Assembly: GCF_000831385.1 (NCBI RefSeq) | Contig: NZ_AP014548.1 | Coordinates: 1,665,779-1,729,778 of the forward strand | DNA from: Nonlabens marinus S1-08 | GTDB lineage: Bacteria; Bacteroidota; Bacteroidia; Flavobacteriales; Flavobacteriaceae | Direction of reading: 5' to 3' | DNA length: 64,000 bases | Shown: positions 29,470 through 46,175 of the stretch, one piece after another | How positions within the stretch are numbered: position 1 is the stretch's first letter | Layout: each line of letters opens with the position of its first letter | Position numbers and translations under genes: made by a program | The notes under the pieces: model-generated | Told to the model about the DNA's origin: nothing | Databases searched by the model: none | The model's input: only the letters and a program-made list of their open reading frames with translations

Positions 29470-30348
29470 ATGCGCTATCCCTTATTTTTTTTGATTTTGC
29501 TAACATATAATTATGGCATGTCTCAACAGATCGATTATGTGGGAATGCTCGCTTTGCAGGATAGTACTTTTATTTCTTATAAAATTGAATTGACTGAAAA
29601 GGATGGGTTGTTAAGTGGGTTTTCCTATACCGATCTCAACGGGCCACATGAGTCAAAAAACACGCTGGTTGGTAGATTTGATGATAAGGAAAACACGATC
29701 GAGTTTCGTGAAGTAGCTATTGTATATACAAAATCACCTATTACAGAACTCGATTTTTGCTATGTATATTTCAAAGGTGATTTACGTAACCTTAAGGGGA
29801 GGGCAAGCCTTACCGGATCATTTAAAAGTTATTATGATGATTTACAACCATGTATAAATGGAGAAATCATCATGCAAGGAGAAGATAAATTTCAGCGTAA
29901 AACGGATAAGATTGTTAGTAGAGTAGAAAAGTCGAAGAAGGTACCCGATAGCATAAAACAACGTATTGCTAATAGTAGATTTTTAAATAGTTCTAAGCGT
30001 CAAGGATTACAAGGTGGCGAGACATTGAACGTATTCTGGGAATCTAAAATAGCCTACCTAGAAATCTGGGATCCAGGAACGGTTGATGGTGATGCGATGT
30101 CCATTAATCTCAATGGCAAGATGATCAAAGACAGTTATTCTCCTAAAAAAGCAAAAACTAAAATTCCATTAATCTTTGATAAAGAGGTCAATAAACTCAC
30201 CTTAAAAGCACTCACCGAAGGAACTGAGCCACCCAACACAGCACAAATACGAATTACCGACGGCAACGGTAAAGAAATAAGCATGCTGTCGAGTTTCAAG
30301 CTAGGTGAGCAGGTTGAGGTGGTGTTTTGTCAAAAGGATTTGAAGTAG
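29470..30348 (+). CDS. Secreted hypothetical protein
   Basis: 292 residues, signal peptide MRYPLFFLILLTYNYGMSQ. Residues about 20-140 form one beta-rich domain (YVGMLALQDSTFISYKIELT, LDFCYVYFKGDLRNLKGRAS) and residues 180-285 another (LNVFWESKIAYLEIWDPGTV, LPLIF-like strands, RITDGNGKEISM). I do not recognise the family. There is no anchoring motif and no T9SS tail, so it is likely periplasmic. The region after it is repeat-rich and gene-free. Confidence 0.72.
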   Translation: MRYPLFFLILLTYNYGMSQQIDYVGMLALQDSTFISYKIELTEKDGLLSGFSYTDLNGPHESKNTLVGRFDDKENTIEFREVAIVYTKSPITELDFCYVYFKGDLRNLKGRASLTGSFKSYYDDLQPCINGEIIMQGEDKFQRKTDKIVSRVEKSKKVPDSIKQRIANSRFLNSSKRQGLQGGETLNVFWESKIAYLEIWDPGTVDGDAMSINLNGKMIKDSYSPKKAKTKIPLIFDKEVNKLTLKALTEGTEPPNTAQIRITDGNGKEISMLSSFKLGEQVEVVFCQKDLK

Positions 30349-30354
30349 ATTTAA

Positions 30355-30400
30355 GTTCAAGGTTCAAGGTTCAAGGTTCAAGGTTCAAGGTTCAAGGTTC
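30355..30400. repeat. Heptanucleotide tandem array (GTTCAAG)6.6
   Basis: Six perfect copies of GTTCAAG plus four more bases, directly after the stop of the secreted protein gene. Unit length equals that of the ATCAAAA array at 42837. It may be an orphan arm of a decayed cassette or a simple-sequence hot spot. Confidence 0.95.
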
Positions 30401-30899
30401 CAAAACGCCCTTTATTTTCGGTAATTCCATTTTGACAACCCTCGACGCAACTCCTCAAGGGAAAAGTCTGTTCTAGGTTTACTGGATTTTGTAGTATACT
30501 AAAGTGTATCGTCTTCCCTTGAGGGAAGATGAGAGATGGGTGTTGCGATGATTTTTGGAGCCTACTCAGCACATGGCAAACACCCTTTGCCTTCGGCATT
30601 TCCCTTGGGGGGGAAACAAGACCATTTTAAATTTATTGTATAGCAATATTTATCATGTTCCCTATAAGGGAAGATAAGAGATGGGTGTTTTGGATGCTGA
30701 AATCGAGTAACTTAATACTTGTCATAAAACCACACCAAATTTCTCCCTGGGTGGAATTAATCTCCGCCCCAAACAAAATCAGCAACAAAAAATGCCCCAA
30801 ATTCCAAGAATTCAGAGCACTTATAATATTTCACTATCATCCAAATTATAAAAGCTGAAAGCTAAAAAAACTCATAGCTCACAGCTCATCGACTCAAAT
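30401..30899. other. Gene-free repeat-rich stretch
   Basis: No credible gene on either strand. It contains two related blocks, CTTCCCTTGAGGGAAGATGA near 30513-30532 and CCCTATAAGGGAAGATAAGA near 30660-30679, each followed by GAGATGGGTGTT. It also has a run of seven G near 30607 and a degenerate GAGCTAT-like array on the minus strand near 30843-30890 next to lpd. It looks like the debris of inserted elements. Confidence 0.6.
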
Positions 30900-38311: not shown

Positions 38312-38608
38312 ATGAGTAATTCAAACAAAAAAGAAATACCACTTTGGGAAGTATTCATTCGTTCCAAAAATGGTTTGGAACATCGTCATTGCGGTAGCTT
38401 ACATGCAGAAGATGCCGAAATGGCCATGAACAATGCACGTGACGTGTACACTAGAAGAAATGAAGGTGTAAGCATTTGGGTAGTAGAGTCATCCAATATA
38501 ACTGCCAGTAGCCCAGATGACAGCGGTTCATTATTCGAACCGGCTAGTGATAAGGTGTACAGACATCCCACTTTTTATGAGTTGCCGGATGAACTCAAAC
38601 ATATGTAA
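38312..38608 (+). CDS. paaB: Phenylacetyl-CoA 1,2-epoxidase subunit PaaB
   Basis: 98 residues, the usual PaaB size. It bridges PaaA-PaaC heterodimers in the epoxidase. Conserved pattern: WEVFIRSKNGLEHRHCGSLH (8-27), ALNNARDVYTRR-type helix (AEMAMNNARDVYTRRNEGVS) and SIWVVESSNI. The stop codon lies inside a strong hairpin (38600-38628), so the mRNA 3' end may be protected or attenuated there. paaC follows only after a 468-bp interruption by a four-helix-bundle cassette. Confidence 0.96.
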   Translation: MSNSNKKEIPLWEVFIRSKNGLEHRHCGSLHAEDAEMAMNNARDVYTRRNEGVSIWVVESSNITASSPDDSGSLFEPASDKVYRHPTFYELPDELKHM

Positions 38609-38628
38609 AAGCTTAGCTTTTTCATATG
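38600..38628. other. Hairpin over the paaB stop codon
   Basis: CATATG T AAAAGCT / AGCTTTT T CATATG: arms of 6 and 7 bp with one T-T mismatch and almost no loop. The TAA stop is in the left arm. No T-run, so it is not a classical terminator. Confidence 0.75.
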
Positions 38629-38634
38629 TCAGAG

Positions 38635-38670
38635 TTCAAATTTAAATTTAAACCAAAACTGAAATTTAAA
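38635..38670 (+). repeat. Left arm of cassette A: six hexamers
   Basis: Exactly 36 bp, six degenerate units of YYTAAA type, ending five bases before the ATG of the S23 remnant. Inverted relative to the right arm at 39026. Confidence 0.8.
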
Positions 38671-38674
38671 AGGT

Positions 38675-39019
38675 ATGAATAAGGCTTATGATTTAGAGGA
38701 CAGATTCATAGATTTTGCCGCGGCTATCGTTTAGGAGTTCGATAAACCTTCAAAGACTTTTGCATCTAGATATTATGCTGAACAGCTTATAAGATCTTCT
38801 GGATCAGTTTCATTAAATTTTAGTGAGTTTGCAGGTGCTGGAACTGAACGAGATAAAATAAATAAACTTAGAATTTCGCTTAAAGAAATTAAAGAGTGTA
38901 ATAACAATCTCAAAATTCAGCTAAAAGCAGGAATTGGAAATCCCGAATCTTTAAAGTCTTTACAAGATGAAGCGGAGCAAATTATTAAAATTCTAGTTGC
39001 GATAATAAACAAACGATAA
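38675..39019 (+). pseudogene. Four-helix-bundle (S23/IVS) protein remnant with amber stop
   Basis: A 114-residue frame matches the 23S rRNA-intervening-sequence family and the neighbouring copy at 42475 throughout: DLEDRFIDFAAAIV (5-18), ASRYYAEQLIRSSGSVSLNF, INKLRISLKEIKECNNNLKI. Codon 20 (38732-38734) is TAG, where the relatives have a sense codon. The last three quarters of the frame are otherwise intact, so the change is recent, or a sequencing error, or the stop is suppressed. It interrupts paaB-paaC and is bracketed by six-hexamer arms. Confidence 0.85.
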
Positions 39020-39025
39020 AAGCCA

Positions 39026-39061
39026 TTTAAATTTAAGTTTAGACTTAGGTTTAGATTTAAA
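39026..39061 (-). repeat. Right arm of cassette A: six hexamers, inverted
   Basis: 36 bp of six units (TTTAAA, TTTAAG, TTTAGA, CTTAGG, TTTAGA, TTTAAA). On the complementary strand it has the same consensus as the left arm, with TGG where the left arm has AGG next to the gene. It ends 15 bp before the paaC ATG. Confidence 0.85.
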
Positions 39062-39076
39062 ACATCCAATACATTC

Positions 39077-39898
39077 ATGGAAAAACAGCTATCATCATCA
39101 AAACCAATTCGGGAACTAAACCCACAATTCCTCGAATCAAAGGAAAACAAACAGCACCTTATCGATTATCTATTGGGTGTTGCTGATAATTACTTAATTC
39201 TTGGACAACGACTAGGGGAACTATGCGGTCATGGGCCCAACCTAGAACCAGACATTGCGATTACTAATATTTCGTTGGATATCTTGGGCCAAGTGCGCAG
39301 TTATTATCAATACATAGCGCAGCTCAAAGGCGATAAGACGACCGAGGATGACATCGCTTTTCTAAGAACAGAACGTGAATATAAAAACGTTTTGCTGGTC
39401 GAACAGCCTAATATTGATTTTGCCTACGTAATAGTCCGTCAATATTTCTTTGATGTGTATAATCGCTTATTCTTGAATGCATTGCAACAAAGTGCAGACG
39501 AAACTCTGAGAGCACTTGCATTTAAAGGGATTAAAGAAGCTAATTACCACGAGCGTTTCTCAGGCGATTGGTTAAAGCGATTGGGCGACGGAACAGCAGA
39601 AAGCAAAGCCAAAGCTCAAGAAGCCGTTAACAATCTTTGGATCTTCACAGAAGAATTATTTCATAAAACAGAAGCCGATACGTCTATGGTTGAAGCTGGC
39701 GTTGCGCCAGATATGCTGCAGTTCAAGGAATATTATTATGAGAAAATTGAAGAGCAATTATCCATAGCCACACTAGATATTCCAGAAGTAGAATACTTCC
39801 AAAAAGGTGGAAAGCAAGGAGTACACAGTGAACATATGGGATACTTGCTAAGTGAAATGCAATACATGCAGCGTACTTACCCTAATTCAAAATGGTAA
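39077..39898 (+). CDS. paaC: Phenylacetyl-CoA 1,2-epoxidase structural subunit
   Basis: 273 residues. Ferritin-like fold without a full diiron site; scaffold partner of PaaA. Signatures are YLLGVADNYLILGQRLGELC (about 31-50), HGPNLEPDIAITNISLDILG, LRTEREYKNVLLVEQPNIDF, and the last third with YYYEKIEEQLSIATLDIP. It lies downstream of the cassette A right arm and so may be transcribed separately from paaB or from a processed message. Confidence 0.95.
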   Translation: MEKQLSSSKPIRELNPQFLESKENKQHLIDYLLGVADNYLILGQRLGELCGHGPNLEPDIAITNISLDILGQVRSYYQYIAQLKGDKTTEDDIAFLRTEREYKNVLLVEQPNIDFAYVIVRQYFFDVYNRLFLNALQQSADETLRALAFKGIKEANYHERFSGDWLKRLGDGTAESKAKAQEAVNNLWIFTEELFHKTEADTSMVEAGVAPDMLQFKEYYYEKIEEQLSIATLDIPEVEYFQKGGKQGVHSEHMGYLLSEMQYMQRTYPNSKW

Positions 39899-39924
39899 AT
39901 ATTAGAAATATAAATTAAGAAAAT

Positions 39925-39960
39925 GTCAGTTCGATCGGAGTCGAGAACAGTTCAACTGGC
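39925..39960. repeat. Hairpin repeat, GTTCGATCGGAGTCGAGAAC copy
   Basis: Same family as 37247, in the gap between paaC and paaD. Confidence 0.8.
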
Positions 39961-39992
39961 TTAATATCAAATCTCAAACTATAAACCTCAAA

Positions 39993-40490
39993 ATGATCCA
40001 AGATCTAAACATATCAGAAGAGCTTCTAGAAATTTTAGAATCCGTAAAAGATCCTGAGATTCCAGTTTTGAATGTGGTAGATCTTGGTGTTATCCGTGAT
40101 GTTGAGGTCAATGGTAAAGAAATTACGATTAAATTGACGCCTACTTATAGCGGTTGCCCGGCGATGGATGTGATAGGTGATGATCTGGAACGCGCCTTTG
40201 AAAAGGAAGGATACACCACAAATGTCCAATTGATCATGAGTCCGCCGTGGACGACTGATTGGATCACAGAACGTGGTCGCAAGGCACTGGAAGAATACGG
40301 TATTGCCGCACCGCTGGATGAAACGGCTGACAAGGATGTGCTGCTCAACGAAAAAAAACTGGTCAAATGCACCAATTGTGGTTCAACCAATACAAAATTG
40401 GTGAGCCAATTTGGTTCCACCGCGTGTAAGGCCATGTTTCAATGTGAGGATTGTCACGAGCCATTCGATTATTTTAAATGCTTGAAATGA
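39993..40490 (+). CDS. paaD: Phenylacetate pathway maturation protein PaaD
   Basis: 165 residues. Domain 1 (about 5-110) is a MIP18/DUF59 fold: LESVKDPEIPVLNVVDLGVI, LTPTYSGCPAMDVI with the invariant Cys. Domain 2 (about 120-165) is a Cys-rich metal site, CTNCGSTNTKLVSQFGSTAC, plus CEDCHEPFDYFKCL. It is thought to assist iron-site or Fe-S maturation of PaaA/PaaE. A palindrome copy follows 3 bp after the stop. Confidence 0.95.
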   Translation: MIQDLNISEELLEILESVKDPEIPVLNVVDLGVIRDVEVNGKEITIKLTPTYSGCPAMDVIGDDLERAFEKEGYTTNVQLIMSPPWTTDWITERGRKALEEYGIAAPLDETADKDVLLNEKKLVKCTNCGSTNTKLVSQFGSTACKAMFQCEDCHEPFDYFKCLK

Positions 40491-40493
40491 TTC

Positions 40494-40509
40494 CGCTTTC
40501 GCGAAAGCT
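40494..40509. repeat. CGCTTTCGCGAAAGCG-family palindrome, one outer mismatch
   Basis: Ends in T; begins 3 bp after the paaD stop. Confidence 0.95.
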
Positions 40510-40542
40510 AAAACCAAAATACATTCTGTAAAATAACTAACC

Positions 40543-40566
40543 GAAGCCGTCCTGCGACGGCTTGAC
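40543..40566. repeat. Hairpin repeat, GCCGTCCTGCGACGGC family
   Basis: Perfect arms; ends 14 bp before the paaG start. Confidence 0.9.
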
Positions 40567-40580
40567 AATTAAAATAACAA

Positions 40581-41360
40581 ATGTCCCAATCCATACAATT
40601 AGAAATCGATAACGGCATTGCCGAAATCACTTTCAATCGTCCACAGGTCTTCAATTCCTTCAATAAAGAAATGGCTTTTGCAATGCAGGATGCGCTCGAT
40701 CGCTGTGCGCAGGACGACGTCCGCGCCGTCATGATCACTGGAAACGGCAAGGCATTTTGCGCTGGTCAGGATATTCAGGAAATCACAAATCCAGACCTCA
40801 ATCCAGGTTTCAAAGCCATTCTTGACGATCATTACAATCCGATTGTATTGAAAATCCGCAATCTGGAAAAGCCTGTGGTTGCTGCCGTCAATGGTGTGGC
40901 AGCTGGTGCTGGAGCAAATCTGGCTTTGTGCTGCGATGTAGTAATCGCGACCGAAAGTGCTGCTTTCATTCAGGCGTTTTCAAAAATTGGGCTTATTCCA
41001 GATAGCGCGGGAACGTTCTTTCTGCCACGATTGATTGGGTTTGGAAAAGCAAGTGCTGCAATGATGCTGGCAGATAAAATTACCGCTGCAGAAGCTGATC
41101 AATTGGGAATGATCTATAAAATGGTAAAGGATGACGAGTTCCTCGCTTTCGCGAAAGCGACCACAAAAAAACTGGCCGAATTACCGACTATAGCTCTAGC
41201 CAATACTAAAAAGGCACTCAATGAGTCCATGACCAACAACGTGGAACAACAATTAAAATTGGAGTCCAAATTGCAAATTGAAAGCGCATCCACGGCAGAC
41301 TATGAAGAAGGCGTCGCGGCATTTATGGAGAAAAGAAAACCGAATTTTAAAGGGAAATAA
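40581..41360 (+). CDS. paaG: 1,2-epoxyphenylacetyl-CoA isomerase
   Basis: 259 residues of the crotonase fold. Oxyanion-hole segments are GKAFCAGQDIQEI (about 55-67) and VNGVAAGAGANLALCCDVVI (108-127). The catalytic Asp of the isomerase is in GLIPDSAGTFFLPR (about D142), the position where hydratases have Glu. It converts ring-epoxide to oxepin-CoA. A palindrome at 41144 gives FLAFAKATTK. A DUF457-type gene lies between this gene and paaH. Confidence 0.93.
   Translation: MSQSIQLEIDNGIAEITFNRPQVFNSFNKEMAFAMQDALDRCAQDDVRAVMITGNGKAFCAGQDIQEITNPDLNPGFKAILDDHYNPIVLKIRNLEKPVVAAVNGVAAGAGANLALCCDVVIATESAAFIQAFSKIGLIPDSAGTFFLPRLIGFGKASAAMMLADKITAAEADQLGMIYKMVKDDEFLAFAKATTKKLAELPTIALANTKKALNESMTNNVEQQLKLESKLQIESASTADYEEGVAAFMEKRKPNFKGK
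41144..41159. repeat. CGCTTTCGCGAAAGCG palindrome, perfect
   Basis: Inside paaG, AFAKA frame. Confidence 0.98.
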
Positions 41361-41411
41361 ATCCAATAAAATCAAGCATCAACATTGCGTATTTAATATC
41401 TCCAATCCCGC

Positions 41412-42422
41412 ATGGATAGTTTAACTCAAATAGTTCTAGGAGCCGCAGTTGGTGAGGCTGTGTTGGGTCGCAGGGTTGGGAACAAGGCGTTGCTCTATGG
41501 TGCGATTGCAGGTACAATTCCAGATCTGGATGTCCTTGTACAGAACTTTGCTGATACGATTACCGCAACTGAGGCACATCGCGGCTTTAGCCATTCCATT
41601 ATCTTTTGCGTTTTGGCAGCACCATTATTGGGTGGGCTGGTCAATAAAATAGAGAGCAAGCAAAAACTGGGCTGGAAACCTTGGGCATGGCTGTTCTTTT
41701 GGTGTTTGTTCACGCATCCGTTATTAGATTGTTTTACCACTTGGGGAACACAGTTGTTCTGGCCATTTGATTGGAGAATAGCTTTCAACAGTATTTTTGT
41801 GATTGACCCGTTGTATACCATTCCGTTTATGGTTTGTGTCATCTGGGCAATATTCCTAAAGAGATCTTCGACATTACGCAAGAAACTCAATTGGACGGGA
41901 ATTGCCATCAGTTCAACTTATTTAATATGTACCGTTGGACTTAAGATGATCGCTACTGCTAGATTTGAACAAGCGCTGGAAAACCAAAAGATTGACTATA
42001 ATCACATCTCAACCAGACCAGGTGCGTTCAGTACCATTTTATGGAACGCCAATGTAGAAACAGAAAATGCGTATCTCTTAGGAGACTATTCCTTTTTTGA
42101 CTCGCAACCTATAAGCTTTGATCTATATCCCAAAAACCGATCAGCAGAACCGGAGTTTGAATCACCACAAGCTCGAGAAGATATAGAAAGAATGAAAGAT
42201 ATCGCTCAAGGCTGGTATCTAATGGAAAACAAAAATGGCAAATGGTATTTCTATGATCTACGTTTTGGATTAAGACCTATTAATCAAAACGAAAAAGAAT
42301 TTGTATTTGCCTATATTGTGAAAGAAGGTGATGATGGGCTAATTGTAAATGAAACGGATAAAAACCTTGAGGATGCTAGCTTGATATTTAAAGAGTTATG
42401 GGAGCGCATTCAAGGAAATTAA
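41412..42422 (+). CDS. YdjM-type membrane metal-dependent hydrolase (DUF457)
   Basis: 336 residues. N-terminal half is membrane-embedded (LTQIVLGAAVGEAVLG, IIFCVLAAPLLGG, PWAWLFFWCLFTHPLLDCFT, IPFMVCVIWAIFLKRSS) and carries the family motif DLDVL...EAHRGFSHSIIF with metal-binding Asp and His residues, and THPLLDCFT. The C-terminal 130 residues are soluble and unassigned. It has no role in phenylacetate catabolism that I know of; it appears to be inserted in the cluster. Cassette B begins directly after its stop. Confidence 0.85.
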   Translation: MDSLTQIVLGAAVGEAVLGRRVGNKALLYGAIAGTIPDLDVLVQNFADTITATEAHRGFSHSIIFCVLAAPLLGGLVNKIESKQKLGWKPWAWLFFWCLFTHPLLDCFTTWGTQLFWPFDWRIAFNSIFVIDPLYTIPFMVCVIWAIFLKRSSTLRKKLNWTGIAISSTYLICTVGLKMIATARFEQALENQKIDYNHISTRPGAFSTILWNANVETENAYLLGDYSFFDSQPISFDLYPKNRSAEPEFESPQAREDIERMKDIAQGWYLMENKNGKWYFYDLRFGLRPINQNEKEFVFAYIVKEGDDGLIVNETDKNLEDASLIFKELWERIQGN

Positions 42423-42423
42423 A

Positions 42424-42465
42424 TGATATCTGATTTAAGATATTTGATATTAGATTTTTGATTTT
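42424..42465 (+). repeat. Left arm of cassette B: six heptamers
   Basis: TGATATC, TGATTTA, AGATATT, TGATATT, AGATTTT, TGATTTT in tandem, 42 bp, starting one base after the DUF457 stop. It shares AGATTTTTGATTTTT (42452-42466) with the complement of the right arm. Confidence 0.8.
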
Positions 42466-42474
42466 TAAGTATTT

Positions 42475-42828
42475 ATGAGAGCACAGGATTTAGAGGATAG
42501 GTTGATAGGTTTTGCCGTTTCAGTAATCAAAGCTTGTAAATTTTTAGATAAAAGCTTTGCTTCACAACATCTATCTAAACAATTGATTCGATCAACAACA
42601 TCTGTCGCGTTGAATTATGGCGAGGCACGCGGTGGAGAATCTACAAGAGACTATTTGCACAAAATGAAAATTTGTCTCAAGGAATTAAGAGAGTCTTACA
42701 TTAATTTAAAAATTCAAAAAGGTGCGGATTTAATAACTAAAATCGAACTTATCGATTCCCTACTTGATGAAAACAATCAACTGATATCAATTTTTGTAGT
42801 CAGTATTAAAAACACAAAGACGGTATAG
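42475..42828 (+). CDS. Four-helix-bundle protein (S23/IVS family)
   Basis: 117 residues, intact. Helical throughout: MRAQDLEDRLIGFAVSVIKA, SFASQHLSKQLIRSTTSVAL, NYGEARGGESTRDYLHKMKI, LKELRESYINLKIQKGADLI, a last amphipathic helix LIDSLLDENNQLISIFVVSI. This is the 23S rRNA-intervening-sequence protein fold (PF05635/TIGR02436), a pentameric basic bundle related to Avd of diversity-generating retroelements. No reverse transcriptase or rRNA gene is here. It stands between inverted heptamer arms inside the paa cluster, one base upstream of the paaH ATG. Confidence 0.9.
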   Translation: MRAQDLEDRLIGFAVSVIKACKFLDKSFASQHLSKQLIRSTTSVALNYGEARGGESTRDYLHKMKICLKELRESYINLKIQKGADLITKIELIDSLLDENNQLISIFVVSIKNTKTV

Positions 42829-42829
42829 A

Positions 42830-44044
42830 ATGACAGATCAAAAATCAAAAATCAAAAATCAAAAATCTCCAATCACTAAGGTTGGAATTATAGGAGCAGG
42901 AACCATGGGAAGCGGTATCGCTCAGGTCGCGGCGACAGCAGGATGCAAGGTGAAACTATTTGATTTGAACCTAGATCAATTGCGCACCGCAGAAGACTCA
43001 TTGGAAAACATTTTATCCCGACTTGTTGAAAAAGGTAGGATCGAGCAGGTAGAAAAGAAACGTATTCAAGAAAACATTTCCTTTGTGCCTCAAATGGAAA
43101 GCCTTCATGATAGTGACTTGACCATTGAAGCGATCGTTGAAAACCTAGAAGTAAAAAAAGAAGTGTTTACACAAATAGAGCATTTAGTTTCTGACGATTG
43201 TATTATAGCTTCAAATACTTCAAGCCTAAGTATTACAAGTATTGCTGCTTCATTGAAGAAGCCAGAACGCTGTATAGGAATTCACTTTTTCAATCCGGCG
43301 CCATTGATGAAATTGGTGGAGATCATTCCAGCAGTGCAAACAGATGAAAAGATCACAGATGTCTGTGTATCGACGATAAAAAGTTGGAGAAAGACCACTG
43401 CGGTAGCAAAGGATACTCCAGGATTTATCGTCAATCGAGTAGCGAGACCATTCTACAGTGAGGCACTGAGAATGTATGAAGAAGGAATGGCTGACATCCC
43501 AATGCTAGACAAGGTTGTGCGCCAAATGGGTTTCCGTATGGGGCCATTTGAACTGATGGATTTTATAGGCCATGATGTTAATTATGTGGTGACCGAATCG
43601 GTTTTTGGAGCATTCTATTACGATCCACGTTATAAGCCATCGCTGACTCAAAAGCGATTGGTTGAAGCTGGCTGGCTGGGAAGAAAATCAGGTCGCGGAT
43701 TCTACAAATTTGAAGACGGAAATAAAATTGAGCCAGATCACGATCCAGAAATGCTTACTGGCGCTGACGCTAAAGCCATTCAAGATCGCTTGCTGGTCAT
43801 GCTTATCAATGAAGCTGCCGATGCACTTTATCTAAAAATTGCAACTGCCGAAGATCTTGACAACGCCATGACAAAAGGCGTTAATTACCCCAAGGGTTTA
43901 CTGGCTTGGGCTGATGAGAAAGGATTGGATTGGTGCGTGAATCAGCTGGATGCATTGTATGATTTTTATAGGGAAGATCGATACAGGTGTTCGCCTCTAC
44001 TGCGTAGTAAAGCGAGCAAGAAGGAAACCTTTTTCCAATCATGA
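42830..44044 (+). CDS. paaH: 3-hydroxyadipyl-CoA dehydrogenase
   Basis: 404 residues. Rossmann motif VGIIGAGTMGSGIAQVAATA (about 19-38), catalytic His/Glu region CIGIHFFNPAPLMKLVEIIP (about 145-164), and C-terminal dimer domain with the family repeat (GWLGRKSGRGFYKFEDG). It oxidises 3-hydroxyadipyl-CoA to 3-oxoadipyl-CoA. Codons 3-13 (42837-42867) are the heptamer array ATCAAAA, so the leader QKSKIKNQKSPITK comes from the cassette B right arm. Gain or loss of one heptamer would shift the frame. No other in-frame ATG precedes the Rossmann motif. It overlaps paaI by 4 bp. Confidence 0.93.
   Translation: MTDQKSKIKNQKSPITKVGIIGAGTMGSGIAQVAATAGCKVKLFDLNLDQLRTAEDSLENILSRLVEKGRIEQVEKKRIQENISFVPQMESLHDSDLTIEAIVENLEVKKEVFTQIEHLVSDDCIIASNTSSLSITSIAASLKKPERCIGIHFFNPAPLMKLVEIIPAVQTDEKITDVCVSTIKSWRKTTAVAKDTPGFIVNRVARPFYSEALRMYEEGMADIPMLDKVVRQMGFRMGPFELMDFIGHDVNYVVTESVFGAFYYDPRYKPSLTQKRLVEAGWLGRKSGRGFYKFEDGNKIEPDHDPEMLTGADAKAIQDRLLVMLINEAADALYLKIATAEDLDNAMTKGVNYPKGLLAWADEKGLDWCVNQLDALYDFYREDRYRCSPLLRSKASKKETFFQS
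42837..42867 (-). repeat. Right arm of cassette B: (ATCAAAA)4.4 within paaH 5' end
   Basis: Four perfect heptamers plus ATC, all inside the paaH reading frame. Confidence 0.95.
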
Positions 44045-44448
44045 TAGAAGGAAAAGAAATTCCAGCCAAAATGCTTTCGCTCGATCCATTTTCCACATGG
44101 ATGGGAATGGAGATCATCCATGTTGAAGTTGGCCGAGTCAAATTAGGGATGAATATCAGACCTGAGATGCTCAATAGTATGGGAAAGGCGCACGGTGGCA
44201 TTACCTATGCACTGGCAGACACCGCTTTTGGCTTCACTTCAAATACACATGGTAAATATGCCGTGTCCATCGAGACCAGCATCAACCACATCGAGGCGCT
44301 GGAAGCTGGCGATTACATCACCGCAGAATGCACGCTGGATAAAACCAAAACCAAAGTCGGTTTCAATATCGTCGAGGTTAAAAAAGACGACGAATTGGTA
44401 GCCCTTTTCAAAGGCGTGGTTTATAGAACCAATAAGGATTGGGAATGA
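44041..44448 (+). CDS. paaI: Hydroxyphenylacetyl-CoA thioesterase PaaI
   Basis: 135 residues, hotdog fold. Motifs: PFSTWMGMEIIHVEVGRVKL (about 14-33), catalytic region MLNSMGKAHGGITYALADTA with the HGG turn and Asp (about 44-63), SIETSINHIEALEAGDYI. It hydrolyses trapped or dead-end acyl-CoA intermediates. ATGA overlap with paaH shows translational coupling. A degenerate palindrome starts 3 bp after the stop. Confidence 0.93.
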   Translation: MIEGKEIPAKMLSLDPFSTWMGMEIIHVEVGRVKLGMNIRPEMLNSMGKAHGGITYALADTAFGFTSNTHGKYAVSIETSINHIEALEAGDYITAECTLDKTKTKVGFNIVEVKKDDELVALFKGVVYRTNKDWE

Positions 44449-44451
44449 GTT

Positions 44452-44467
44452 CGCTTTTGCGAAAGCG
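44452..44467. repeat. Degenerate CGCTTTCGCGAAAGCG copy
   Basis: CGCTTTTGCGAAAGCG, one change, 3 bp after the paaI stop. Confidence 0.9.
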
Positions 44468-44473
44468 AAATAG

Positions 44474-44505
44474 GAGATGAGATGATTAGAGGATGAGAGA
44501 AATAG
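44474..44505 (+). repeat. Left arm of cassette C: four octamers
   Basis: GAGATGAG, ATGATTAG, AGGATGAG, AGAAATAG, 32 bp. Inverted relative to the right arm at 44914-44945. Confidence 0.75.
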
Positions 44506-44531
44506 TTTAATTGACGATATTTAAAAAAAAT

Positions 44532-44906
44532 ATGAATAGTAAGTATGTATTTGCTTTCGAAAAACTAGATGTATATCATAAAGCAATTGATTATGGCGAA
44601 CACGTTCATTTGCAAATAAAGTCTTTTCCCAAAGATGAATTATATGCCATTTCCAGCCAATATAGACGAGCAGCAGATTCTATTGCTTTAAATATTTCTG
44701 AAGGCTACCCAGGAAGTGATGCTCAATTCATCAAACATTTGAATATTGCAATTTATAGTGCAAATGAATGTATTACTTGTAGCACCAAAGCCTTTAAAAG
44801 AAATTATATTGATTTTGAGAAAGATGAGGAAAACAGGATGTTGATCACAGAATTAACAAAAATGCTTTCGTCACTAAGGTCATACGTTAGAAAAAGATCT
44901 TTGTAA
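44532..44906 (+). CDS. Four-helix-bundle protein (S23/IVS family)
   Basis: 124 residues from the ATG at 44532; a TTG at 44511 would add seven weak residues. Signatures are FAFEKLDVYHKAIDYGEHVH (about 7-26), ELYAISSQYRRAADSIALNI, SEGYPGSDAQFIKHLNIAIY, SANECITCSTKAFKRNYIDF and a C-terminal helix KMLSSLRSYVRKRSL. Basic ends suggest RNA or DNA binding. It is a different branch of the family from the copies at 38675 and 42475. It separates paaI from paaJ and is bracketed by inverted octamer arms. Confidence 0.88.
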   Translation: MNSKYVFAFEKLDVYHKAIDYGEHVHLQIKSFPKDELYAISSQYRRAADSIALNISEGYPGSDAQFIKHLNIAIYSANECITCSTKAFKRNYIDFEKDEENRMLITELTKMLSSLRSYVRKRSL

Positions 44907-44913
44907 TCCAACA

Positions 44914-44945
44914 GTATCAGCCTCATCTTCTCATCCACTAATCCT
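44914..44945 (-). repeat. Right arm of cassette C: octamers, inverted
   Basis: On the complementary strand AGGATTAG, TGGATGAG, AAGATGAG and GCTGATAC: three clear units plus one weak unit, with 16 of 20 positions matching the left arm. It ends 15 bp before the paaJ ATG. Confidence 0.75.
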
Positions 44946-44960
44946 CTAAAACACTAATTA

Positions 44961-46175
44961 ATGAACACCTACATAATAGACGGAATAAGAACACCAGTCG
45001 GCAATTATAAAGGAACACTATCCACCGTAAGACCCGACGATCTAGCAGCACACGTGATTAAAACACTAGTTGAAAAACATCCAGAAATCCCACAAGAAGA
45101 TTATGCCGATGTGATTATGGGTTGTGCCAATCAAGCTGGTGAGGACAATCGTAATGTGGCTCGCATGGCCGGGTTATTGGCAGGATTACCATTTTCTGTT
45201 CCGGGAGAAACCGTCAACAGATTATGCAGCTCTGGATTAAGTGCTATCGTTCATGCGCATCGTGCGATACAAACCGGTGATGGCGAAGTGTTCATCTCTG
45301 GCGGCGTTGAGAACATGACTCGTGGCCCATTAGTCATTGCAAAACCTAGCAGTGCTTTTGGAACCGACTCTAAAATGTACGATTCCAGTTTTGGCTGGCG
45401 ATTTGTCAATCAAAAGATGGCCGATATGTATGGTGTGGACGGTATGGGAAATACAGCTGAGAATCTAGTTTCCAAATTCGATATCTCCCGTGAGGATCAA
45501 GATAAATTTGCATCATGGTCACAACAAAAAGCAGCCGAAGCCAGGGAGTCTGGAAGACTTGCCAAAGAAATTGTGCCCGTTGAGATTCCGCAGCGTAAAA
45601 AAGATCCAATCATTTTTAAAGATGACGAATTTATACGCCCTGGTACAACCGTTGAAATTCTTGCCAAACTACGTCCAGCATTCAAAAAAGAAGGCGGATC
45701 AGTTACTGCCGGAAACGCTAGTGGTTTAAACGATGGTGCGGCGGCAACGATTATCGCCAGTGAGGATGCCGTTAAAAAATACGGACTCAAACCTATTGCA
45801 AAAATTTTGAGCAGCGCTGTAGTAGGTGTAGAGCCTAGAATCATGGGGATAGGTCCTGTAGAAGCAAGTAATAAAGCTCTTGAAAAGGCTGGTCTGACCA
45901 TGGCTGATATGGGCGTTATAGAATTAAACGAGGCTTTTGCCTCGCAAGCTTTAGCCTGCATCAGAGAATGGGGGTTGAAAGATGACGATCCACGTATCAA
46001 TCCTAATGGTGGTTCGATCGCCATAGGCCATCCGCTAGGGATGACGGGAACGCGACTGGCTTATACTGCAGCTTTGGAGTTATCGCTTTCGCGAAAGCGA
46101 TATGCCCTCATCACCATGTGCGTAGGAGTTGGTCAAGGTTATGCGATGGTTATTGAGAATGTAGGTTTAAATTAG
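44961..46175 (+). CDS. paaJ: 3-oxoadipyl-CoA/acetyl-CoA C-acyltransferase (thiolase)
   Basis: 404 residues. Nucleophilic Cys in TVNRLCSSGLSAIVHA (about C92), catalytic His in GGSIAIGHPLGMTGTRLAYT (about 355) and second Cys in MCVGVGQGYAM (about 390). It cleaves 3-oxoadipyl-CoA to succinyl-CoA and acetyl-CoA, the last step of the pathway. Palindrome at 46084 is read LSLSRKRYA between the His and Cys motifs. It starts right after the cassette C right arm. Confidence 0.94.
   Translation: MNTYIIDGIRTPVGNYKGTLSTVRPDDLAAHVIKTLVEKHPEIPQEDYADVIMGCANQAGEDNRNVARMAGLLAGLPFSVPGETVNRLCSSGLSAIVHAHRAIQTGDGEVFISGGVENMTRGPLVIAKPSSAFGTDSKMYDSSFGWRFVNQKMADMYGVDGMGNTAENLVSKFDISREDQDKFASWSQQKAAEARESGRLAKEIVPVEIPQRKKDPIIFKDDEFIRPGTTVEILAKLRPAFKKEGGSVTAGNASGLNDGAAATIIASEDAVKKYGLKPIAKILSSAVVGVEPRIMGIGPVEASNKALEKAGLTMADMGVIELNEAFASQALACIREWGLKDDDPRINPNGGSIAIGHPLGMTGTRLAYTAALELSLSRKRYALITMCVGVGQGYAMVIENVGLN
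46084..46099. repeat. CGCTTTCGCGAAAGCG palindrome, perfect
   Basis: Inside paaJ, LSRKR frame. Confidence 0.98.

Follow-up and report, generated by a model that had tools for sequence, protein, structure and literature searches.

S23 genes between inverted short tandem repeats in bacterial operon junctions and their apparent kinship to the intervening sequences of rRNA genes

The closest described counterparts of the genes examined here are the S23-type intervening sequences (IVS) of Coxiella and Leptospira, in which an S23 open reading frame lies in sense orientation between complementary ends. The Coxiella IVS carries tandem GACAGAT heptamers, in strain-dependent copy number, before the S23 start, and has a 28-bp terminal stem within which the ends left by RNase III cutting lie (PMC4990558). 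In this study, we followed the same gene family in a 64,000-nucleotide stretch of the Nonlabens marinus S1-08 genome (NZ_AP014548.1, positions 1,665,779 to 1,729,778 of the forward strand; here called the window), in whose paa cluster three cassettes, A, B and C, each hold one S23 gene between inverted arrays ("arms") of 6-, 7- and 8-bp units, respectively. Like the IVS, they combine a PF05635 (S23) protein with complementary terminal repeats, only modestly so in C, and cassette B has 7-bp units beside the S23 start, those of A and C being 6 and 8 bp. Unlike the IVS, they stand between protein-coding genes and not in an rRNA gene, and we have therefore filed them as a variant and not as a member of the rRNA IVS class.

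Matching each left arm to its inverted right arm gave scores of 33 for A, 47 for B and 28 for C, against 10-18 between cassettes. These own scores were reached by 4, 1 and 48 of 5000 random stretches of the window, respectively, cassette C being the weakest of the three and only modest on its own score. The arms of B share a 15-bp exact inverted match (AGATTTTTGATTTTT). Scanning the whole window for short-period runs (score above 11, lags 5-10) returned little else: lag 6 picked out the two arms of A and nothing more, lag 7 the two arms of B and a lone array at 30355-30400, and lag 8 the right arm of C only, its left arm falling below the threshold; no run above score 11 occurred anywhere in the window at lags 5, 9 or 10. 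The hexamer arms of A occupy 38635-38673 (+) and 39023-39061 (−) and enclose an S23 gene (38675-39019, +) that the genome-wide Pfam search matched to PF05635 and that has a single in-frame TAG at 38732-38734. In B, heptamer arms at 42424-42473 (+; aligned part 42431-42466) and 42830-42879 (−; aligned part 42840-42875) enclose the gene at 42475-42828 (+), and in C the gene at 44532-44906 (+) lies between a left arm with an aligned part at 44480-44498 (+) and an inverted octamer array at 44922-44957 (−; aligned part 44929-44947). The arms were placed by period scan and arm matching, the left arm of C by arm matching. The S23 proteins of B and C pass the PF05635 and TIGR02436 cut-offs, and the window's gene list shows S23 alone, with no transposase gene, between the arms of all three. 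A sequence-only reading of this stretch had described the three cassettes with their own arms matching within and not between them, the 15-bp match, and an S23 gene in each, that of A broken by TAG, and on all of these points it holds.

Comparable arms surround most S23 genes of the genome and the genus. Throughout, "operon" denotes co-oriented close neighbours as read from the sequence alone, and the genes at a junction are named from their translations. The genome-wide Pfam search found seven PF05635 genes in the window's genome; the other four lie at a thiolase|acyl-CoA dehydrogenase junction, in an efflux pump pair, between two CoA-transferase subunits and at atpA|atpG, all flanked by inverted short repeats with differing units, and the own inverted scores of all seven (27-53) exceed the 95% null of 25. 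Across the genus, PF05635 occurs in 21 of 23 genomes with 132 matches, of which 131 could be scored on 200-nt flanks (one match had no flank). Their own inverted scores have a median of 32, as compared with a cross-pair median of 17 (95% point 25, 99% point 37.5); 98 of the 131 exceed the former point and 44 the latter, so that the flanks of S23 genes in relatives are mostly matching and not unrelated. Same-strand neighbours within 250 nt on both sides were found for 118 of the 132 genes, and the remaining 14 were left out of the coupling, period, dN/dS (nonsynonymous to synonymous substitution) and site-clustering analyses. The same junctions recur, namely paaB|C, C|D, G|H, H|I and I|J, fadB|fadA, fadA|acad, scoA|B and atpA|G, and further ffh|folD, folA|fabD, ruvX|def and sdhA|B, with groES|groEL seen once. 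At the class level, 63 of 80 genomes hold PF05635, and 25 of the best 29 class loci by score lie above a 95% null of 24 (counted from the listing). One 13.3-kb genus contig (C2 of G003, locus L047) carries near-duplicate paa genes with S23 genes in both directions, which may be a duplication or an assembly product, and at one further locus (L212, genome G086) the two S23 flanks apparently share a heptamer-like repeat that is direct and not inverted.

To look beyond the class, public genomes were scanned with one conserved S23 peptide, and the best 80 of at least 558 stretches were taken as a named set, with taxa read from record titles and many records being metagenome bins; as a result of the single probe, the divergent clade to which cassettes A and B belong is absent from it. 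Both neighbours lie on the S23 strand in 67 of the 71 loci where both were found. The own inverted score has a median of 28 vs 16 for cross pairs (p 4e-34), and direct matching gives 18. Of the 80 loci, 51 exceed 24 and 24 exceed 33, compared with 3 and 2 of 47 control genes from the window (control maximum 44). Although the set spans many phyla, its flanks share a single period of seven, with identities at lag 7 of 0.39 upstream and 0.43 downstream vs 0.28-0.32 at other lags, and at lag 14 of 0.36 and 0.39, the window control being flat. Clear arms were seen in three Clostridia, a Chloroflexota, a Gemmatimonadetes, a betaproteobacterial and an Ignavibacteria locus, and none at the archaeal, gammaproteobacterial, Desulfuromonadales, Bacillota and two further Clostridia loci of the set. 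Plasmid records with S23 number 34; among the 11 analysed (ten cyanobacterial, one Azospirillum), the own arm match beats every cross pair in 9, and on a Nostoc plasmid one unit pair occurs nowhere but in the two arms. Among the plasmid sites are cas6|cas4 (two loci), cmr2|cmr3 and an ATPase|ParB pair, so that three cyanobacterial S23 genes with heptad arms (L214, L220, L224) lie inside CRISPR operons, and in 3 of the 11 loci (L215, L216, L219) both neighbours run opposite to S23. S23 is also held by 35 viral-contig loci (30 distinct proteins, lag-7 value 0.38). A phage origin of S23 was considered and set aside, one S23 query having found no match in 50,697 phage records, although these viral-contig loci hold the gene. 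Taken together, the genus, class, plasmid and named-locus surveys agree with the earlier expectation that inverted short tandem repeats are general around S23 genes.

The link to the IVS is most direct in one locus on an Azospirillum lipoferum plasmid (L221), which is a large subunit rRNA gene (RF02541, 2548.8 bits) whose match spans the S23 gene. There S23 runs in sense with the rRNA, between arms built of AGAGGAC GGATGAC AGAGGAC GGAGGAC. A scan of 311 loci for 23S rRNA motifs returned this locus only, plus a single-motif match at L164. Heptad arms around S23 in the Azospirillum 23S gene, together with the heptamers of the Coxiella IVS (PMC4990558), lead us to view the cassettes as S23 elements of the IVS type in operons, and from this shared anatomy we conclude that rRNA IVS and operon cassettes would be one kind of element, a kinship that the sequence-only reading had drawn by analogy.

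Period-7 runs number 142 in 120 loci, as compared with 3, 6, 18, 4 and 4 at lags 5, 6, 8, 9 and 10, and an arm has a median of 4.6 units (interquartile range 4.1-5.6). The heptad consensus NAGWWNW emerges separately from left arms (n = 68) and from right arms taken as reverse complements (n = 73), with an information content of 2.69 on both sides vs permuted maxima of 2.21 and 2.18 and core frequencies (left/right) of 0.78/0.69 for A and 0.93/0.93 for G. In left arms, variation between units is lowest at the core G, and this near-invariant base looks like part of a sequence that is read. Pairing between the arms would predict that G·U is tolerated and A·C purged. Among arms with a score of at least 28 (44 named, 22 class, 10 plasmid, 76 genus), the G·U/A·C counts were 29/35 in the named set, 11/14 in the class, 8/8 on plasmids and 55/77 in the genus, a total of 103 vs 134, and 13/13 in the hairpins of atpA|atpG sites that have no S23. 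The core G of the right arm showed no extra tolerance of C to U and is as constrained as that of the left. Upkeep of the arms by RNA pairing, which the sequence-only reading had suggested could occur in the paa mRNA, is thus not supported, and recognition of both arms is favoured instead.

What would do the recognising is suggested by the protein. The two relatives with solved structures (2GSC, 2RLD) have five chains each, and the title of the 2006 study by Lin et al. reportedly speaks of five four-helix bundles; S23 is probably a ring of five. Five chains and a median of 4.6 units per arm together led us to propose one unit per subunit. TRAP, a ring protein of 11 subunits that binds (G/U)AG repeats in RNA, resembles this arrangement in its ring and in the even spacing of AG repeats; it differs in fold, subunit number and RNA target, and with S23 binding itself putative it serves as an analogy only. 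Among same-site S23 pairs, the median dN/dS is 0.10 (59 non-independent pairs, none above 1), which argues that the protein is used.

Arms and protein also vary together. When a left arm is compared with the right arms of same-site orthologues, its own partner matches better, with a mean rank of 0.75 (0.5 expected; 95 cassettes, 11 sites), and with RNA duplex energy in place of the match score the rank is lower, at 0.685. Within a site, arm similarity rises with S23 identity (Spearman 0.61 over 474 non-independent pairs). Between sites, with paaG|H and ydjM|paaH merged as one place and paaH|I and c21|paaI as another, it rises mildly, from 15 below 55% S23 identity to 18.6 at 55-65% (83 pairs) and 22.6 at 65-80% (48 pairs, mostly paaI vs paaY sites). 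The unit period of the 118 genus cassettes is 7 in 58, 6 in 25, 8 in 17 and weak in 18; period 6 is found in 17 of 18 paaB|C cassettes and period 8 in 6 of 6 at scoA|B. On a tree of 89 S23 rows, the period requires 7 changes, as compared with a mean of 33.1 and a least value of 29 in 100 shuffles, and by this tree the arm period is a trait of the S23 lineage.

The history of individual sites is one of gain, loss and replacement. At paaB|paaC, 20 of 23 genomes (21 of 24 loci) have a cassette-sized gap, the exceptions being G015, G018 and G021; a PF05635 match lies there in 19 of 23, genome G010 having the gap and no match. At scoA|scoB (21 sites including one unreadable, with one incomplete locus left out), the gap from the stop codon is 446-493 nt in 7, 0-6 nt in 7 and 55-179 nt in 6. 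Three S23 subclades with differing arm types share paaB|C, and in two genomes (G001 and G008) the S23 genes at fadA|acad are near-identical, yet those at paaB|C belong to different subclades. A left arm of another type stands before the present cassette at paaB|C in G004 and at paaC|D in G005 and G016. These old left arms beside new cassettes, and the subclades at one site, are the reason why cassettes appear, from comparison of the genomes, to replace one another as alleles at a site. The empty paaH|paaI junction is an ATGA overlap in the four loci compared; where it is filled (G004, G005), the array supplies the upstream stop codon and the first paaI codons differ, which argues against a clean insertion with duplication there.

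Arms are also found where S23 is not. The 22 atpA|atpG sites (one incomplete locus left out) comprise 6 with S23, one remnant (G021), one unreadable and 14 with 40-120 nt. In all 14 of these short, S23-less gaps the lag-7 identity is 0.49-0.63 vs 0.23-0.41 at other lags, and in 12 the hairpin exceeds all 60 mononucleotide shuffles. Four genomes have lone arms or S23-less palindromes at paaA|B, two have them at paaC|D and one at paaG|H. The genome of the efflux-pump cassette holds two further arrays built of that cassette's unit but lacking S23, at pfkA|gapA (L347, about 935-1065) and after another gene (L348, about 1020-1125). Such remnants, together with presence and absence and replacement at one site, fit the element-like behaviour suggested earlier; persistence at several junctions also means that the arms do not strictly depend on the gene.

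Our favoured explanation, to which we give roughly even odds (about 0.48), is that these are S23 elements of operon junctions whose arrays are read by the S23 ring and serve the upkeep and spread of the element. Each cassette would be an S23 element of the rRNA-IVS kind lodged between protein-coding operon genes and expressed by host transcription of the operon. Its gene would be bracketed by two inverted arrays, usually of the heptad NAGWWNW with 4-6 units per arm, with 6- and 8-bp lineages alongside. A ring of five would then bind these arrays, presumably as DNA rather than RNA and one subunit per unit, as cognate sites at the element ends, and this reading would serve a presumably selfish end, maintenance and spread between genomes at the same junction.

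Several observations weigh against this explanation. The 95% null is not exceeded by 33 of 131 genus loci and 29 of 80 named loci. Arm units are not strictly private to one cassette; the own match is best, as the sequence-only reading had it, and strict privacy is weakened by the recurrence of the efflux-pump unit in two S23-less arrays. Arms are present in the absence of S23, and even genome G018, with no PF05635 match, has them, its atpA|atpG site being the least clear of the 14 (other lags 0.41); the arrays may therefore serve some purpose independent of S23. The rise of arm similarity between sites is small and rests mainly on paaI vs paaY pairs, and above 80% identity the value is 17.5, from two pairs only. 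S23 genes cluster by site, with 22 label changes on 103 of the 118 rows, as compared with 78.6 after shuffling and with many forks left unresolved, and such faithfulness implies that movement between sites is rare. By eye, scoA|scoB and paaH|paaI show no clean target-site duplication, and the arms there run into coding ends. Five chains fit 4.6 units only loosely, since the lower end of the unit counts depends on the threshold of detection. S23 is not known to contain a nuclease, transposase or polymerase, which leaves the movement step, of conjectural chemistry, without an enzyme. Finally, the Coxiella S23 protein has been suggested not to be made in vivo (PMC4990558).

The alternative closest to the described IVS, rather unlikely in our judgement, is that the cassette is an intervening sequence of the mRNA, its arms pairing in the polycistronic transcript so that RNase III or another nuclease cuts there, frees the S23 message and splits the operon mRNA. 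Consistent with it are the shared strand of S23 and its neighbours in 67 of 71 named loci, the sense orientation in the rRNA case, RNase III cutting of the Coxiella IVS (PMC4990558), and RNA folds of A, B and C in which the outer arms pair. An inverted copy of the end of paaB that follows paaB across several genomes points the same way. Yet the fold z-scores vs shuffles are modest (−3.1 for A, which beats its shuffles, −1.2 for B and −2.0 for C), G·U is favoured over A·C neither in the arms nor in the S23-less hairpins, the core G of the right arm lacks the extra C-to-U tolerance that pairing allows, and both neighbours run opposite to S23 in 3 of 11 plasmid loci. It is improbable, though less easily dismissed than what follows, that S23 is a regulator useful to the host, with rings binding the AG array in the 5′ part of the transcript and so tuning the flanking genes or S23 itself. 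A sense-strand AG core ahead of S23, strong purifying selection and subunit-gene junctions such as atpA|atpG, scoA|scoB and groES|groEL would suit such a role; the equal upkeep of the array on the right arm, the unrelated pathways occupied and the internal stops in 14 of 132 genus matches (counted from the table), which make broken copies not rare, would not, and most copies of these junctions do without S23 (it is present at 6 of 22 atp sites, and the gap is cassette-sized at 7 of 21 sco sites).

The remaining explanations fare worse. A non-autonomous repeat, transposon-like or of the kind of repetitive extragenic palindromes (REP) or miniature inverted-repeat transposable elements (MITEs), moved by a host or phage enzyme with S23 as passenger or accessory, seems highly improbable to us: S23-less hairpins, lone arrays and the S23 genes of 34 plasmid records and 35 viral-contig loci speak for mobility of this sort, against which stand the lack of a transposase gene in the window cassettes and of a reverse transcriptase in the window's genome, the one query unmatched among phage records, and an arm period that follows the S23 lineage. 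REP with their RAYT (REP-associated tyrosine transposase) genes and MITEs share with the cassettes inverted repeats around a small gene, an intergenic position and gene-less copies; they differ in that the cassettes have no transposase gene between the arms and have tandem-array ends that follow the protein lineage. For the same want of a transposase, the cassettes do not fit an insertion sequence or transposon with terminal inverted repeats. That slippage piled up simple repeats in operon gaps would account for the variable length and unit of the arrays and for flanks that are mostly non-coding, and is nonetheless scarcely credible given the specificity of lag 7, inverted matches on both sides, a common AG core and the rarity of such arms around control genes. 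Equally close to negligible is a diversity-generating retroelement with S23 as its Avd protein. PF05635 proteins are described as resembling and homologous to Avd (PMC10053308), but RVT_1 is absent from the window's genome, which disposes of a reverse-transcriptase partner there, and occurs in 8 of 23 genus genomes as against 21 of 23 for S23; a crude reverse-transcriptase motif pair lay beside none of the 35 viral-contig S23 loci.

Around the window cassettes, the operon genes all lie on the + strand. Cassette A stands between paaB (38312-38608, PF06243) and paaC (39077-39898, role inferred from cluster context), and C between a paaI-like thioesterase gene (44041-44448) and a paaJ-like thiolase gene (44961-46175), the roles of both being inferred. 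For B, the earlier description of all three as lying between co-pathway genes stands on the right, with a putative paaH-like 3-hydroxyacyl-CoA dehydrogenase gene (42830-44044), and not on the left, where the neighbour is a gene for a YdjM-family membrane protein (41412-42422, PF04307) that lies between paaG and paaH and, among the compared loci, is found only in the window's genome and G014. The right arm of B falls inside the paaH reading frame (MTDQKSKIKNQKS...), in its first codons, and translation of 42830-42879 extends PaaH at its N terminus (QKSKIKNQKS); in other genomes, PaaD begins with Asn/Ser runs that are encoded by the right arm of the cassette at paaC|paaD. Just before cassette A, a hairpin at 38590-38638 (+) joins the last coding bases of paaB to their inverted copy (38590-38612 / 38616-38638). 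The same is seen in G003, G007, G012, G016 and G019, where the copy changes together with paaB; it could have arisen by template switching or have been selected as a hairpin. Farther away, the lone array at 30355-30400 is a perfect heptamer repeat (GTTCAAG, 6.6 copies) that closely follows a gene whose end is at 30348; neither an S23 gene nor an inverted partner was seen with it. Degenerate heptamers at 30849-30889 (AGCTGAA/AGCTAAA, CTCATAG/CTCACAG), just beyond the end of a minus-strand lpdA-like gene, may be an S23-less remnant.

Heptamer arrays themselves have been reported repeatedly. The short tandemly repeated repetitive (STRR) sequences of cyanobacteria are usually of 7 bp, occur between hupS and hupL and are of unknown function (PMC2670836); TAACTGA repeats are found in Beggiatoaceae, Cyanobacteria and five Bacteroidetes with no evident transfer mechanism (PMC4679880); the GGGAATC repeats of Xanthomonas have mostly four units, and one genome has 70 closely spaced convergent pairs of them (PMC4692102); and Geobacter has heptanucleotide elements of four and five units (PMC2700814). 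Like the arms studied here, these are intergenic tandem heptamers, some in inverted pairs or hairpins, and the S23-less atpA|atpG sites form heptamer hairpins of the STRR type (PMC2670836); they differ in that many are single arrays. A word search of the available text of PMC4679880, PMC4692102 and PMC2700814 did not find S23 named, and the tandem units of these families were not found in the loci of this analysis, apart from TAACTGA in two viral loci, one match lying within S23 coding sequence and both being set aside. Our literature search returned, among the papers listed, no account of S23 cassettes in operons or of their arms, which, with subscription papers mostly outside it, is no proof of absence. 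In Flavobacterium columnare, a "four helix bundle protein" gene between those for guanylate kinase and nicotinate adenylyltransferase is listed under phage elements without comment (PMC5524665), and is by our reading another operon cassette.

A wider proposal is possible, which we think less likely than not: S23 rings would read one AG-heptad per subunit and, with their inverted arrays, form one class of tiny element of transcribed junctions spanning many phyla, in operon gaps and rRNA helices alike, of which the orphan repeats of cyanobacteria, Xanthomonas, Beggiatoaceae and Geobacter would be non-autonomous relatives. If true, this would explain repeat families of unknown origin as well as their binding protein, and give the published heptamer repeats, reported without a mechanism, a candidate cognate protein, the link to S23 being our own proposal.

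In conclusion, S23 genes are widespread (63 of 80 class genomes, at least 558 stretches) and usually named merely "four helix bundle protein", and the evidence gathered here suggests a widespread and overlooked kind of element in bacterial operons, to whose population the intervening sequences of rRNA would be joined. The family-wide rule of inverted heptad arrays with about five units, an AG core and a unit set by lineage offers a concrete hypothesis for the target of S23 and, if it is true, many operon maps would carry an uncounted load of S23 elements.

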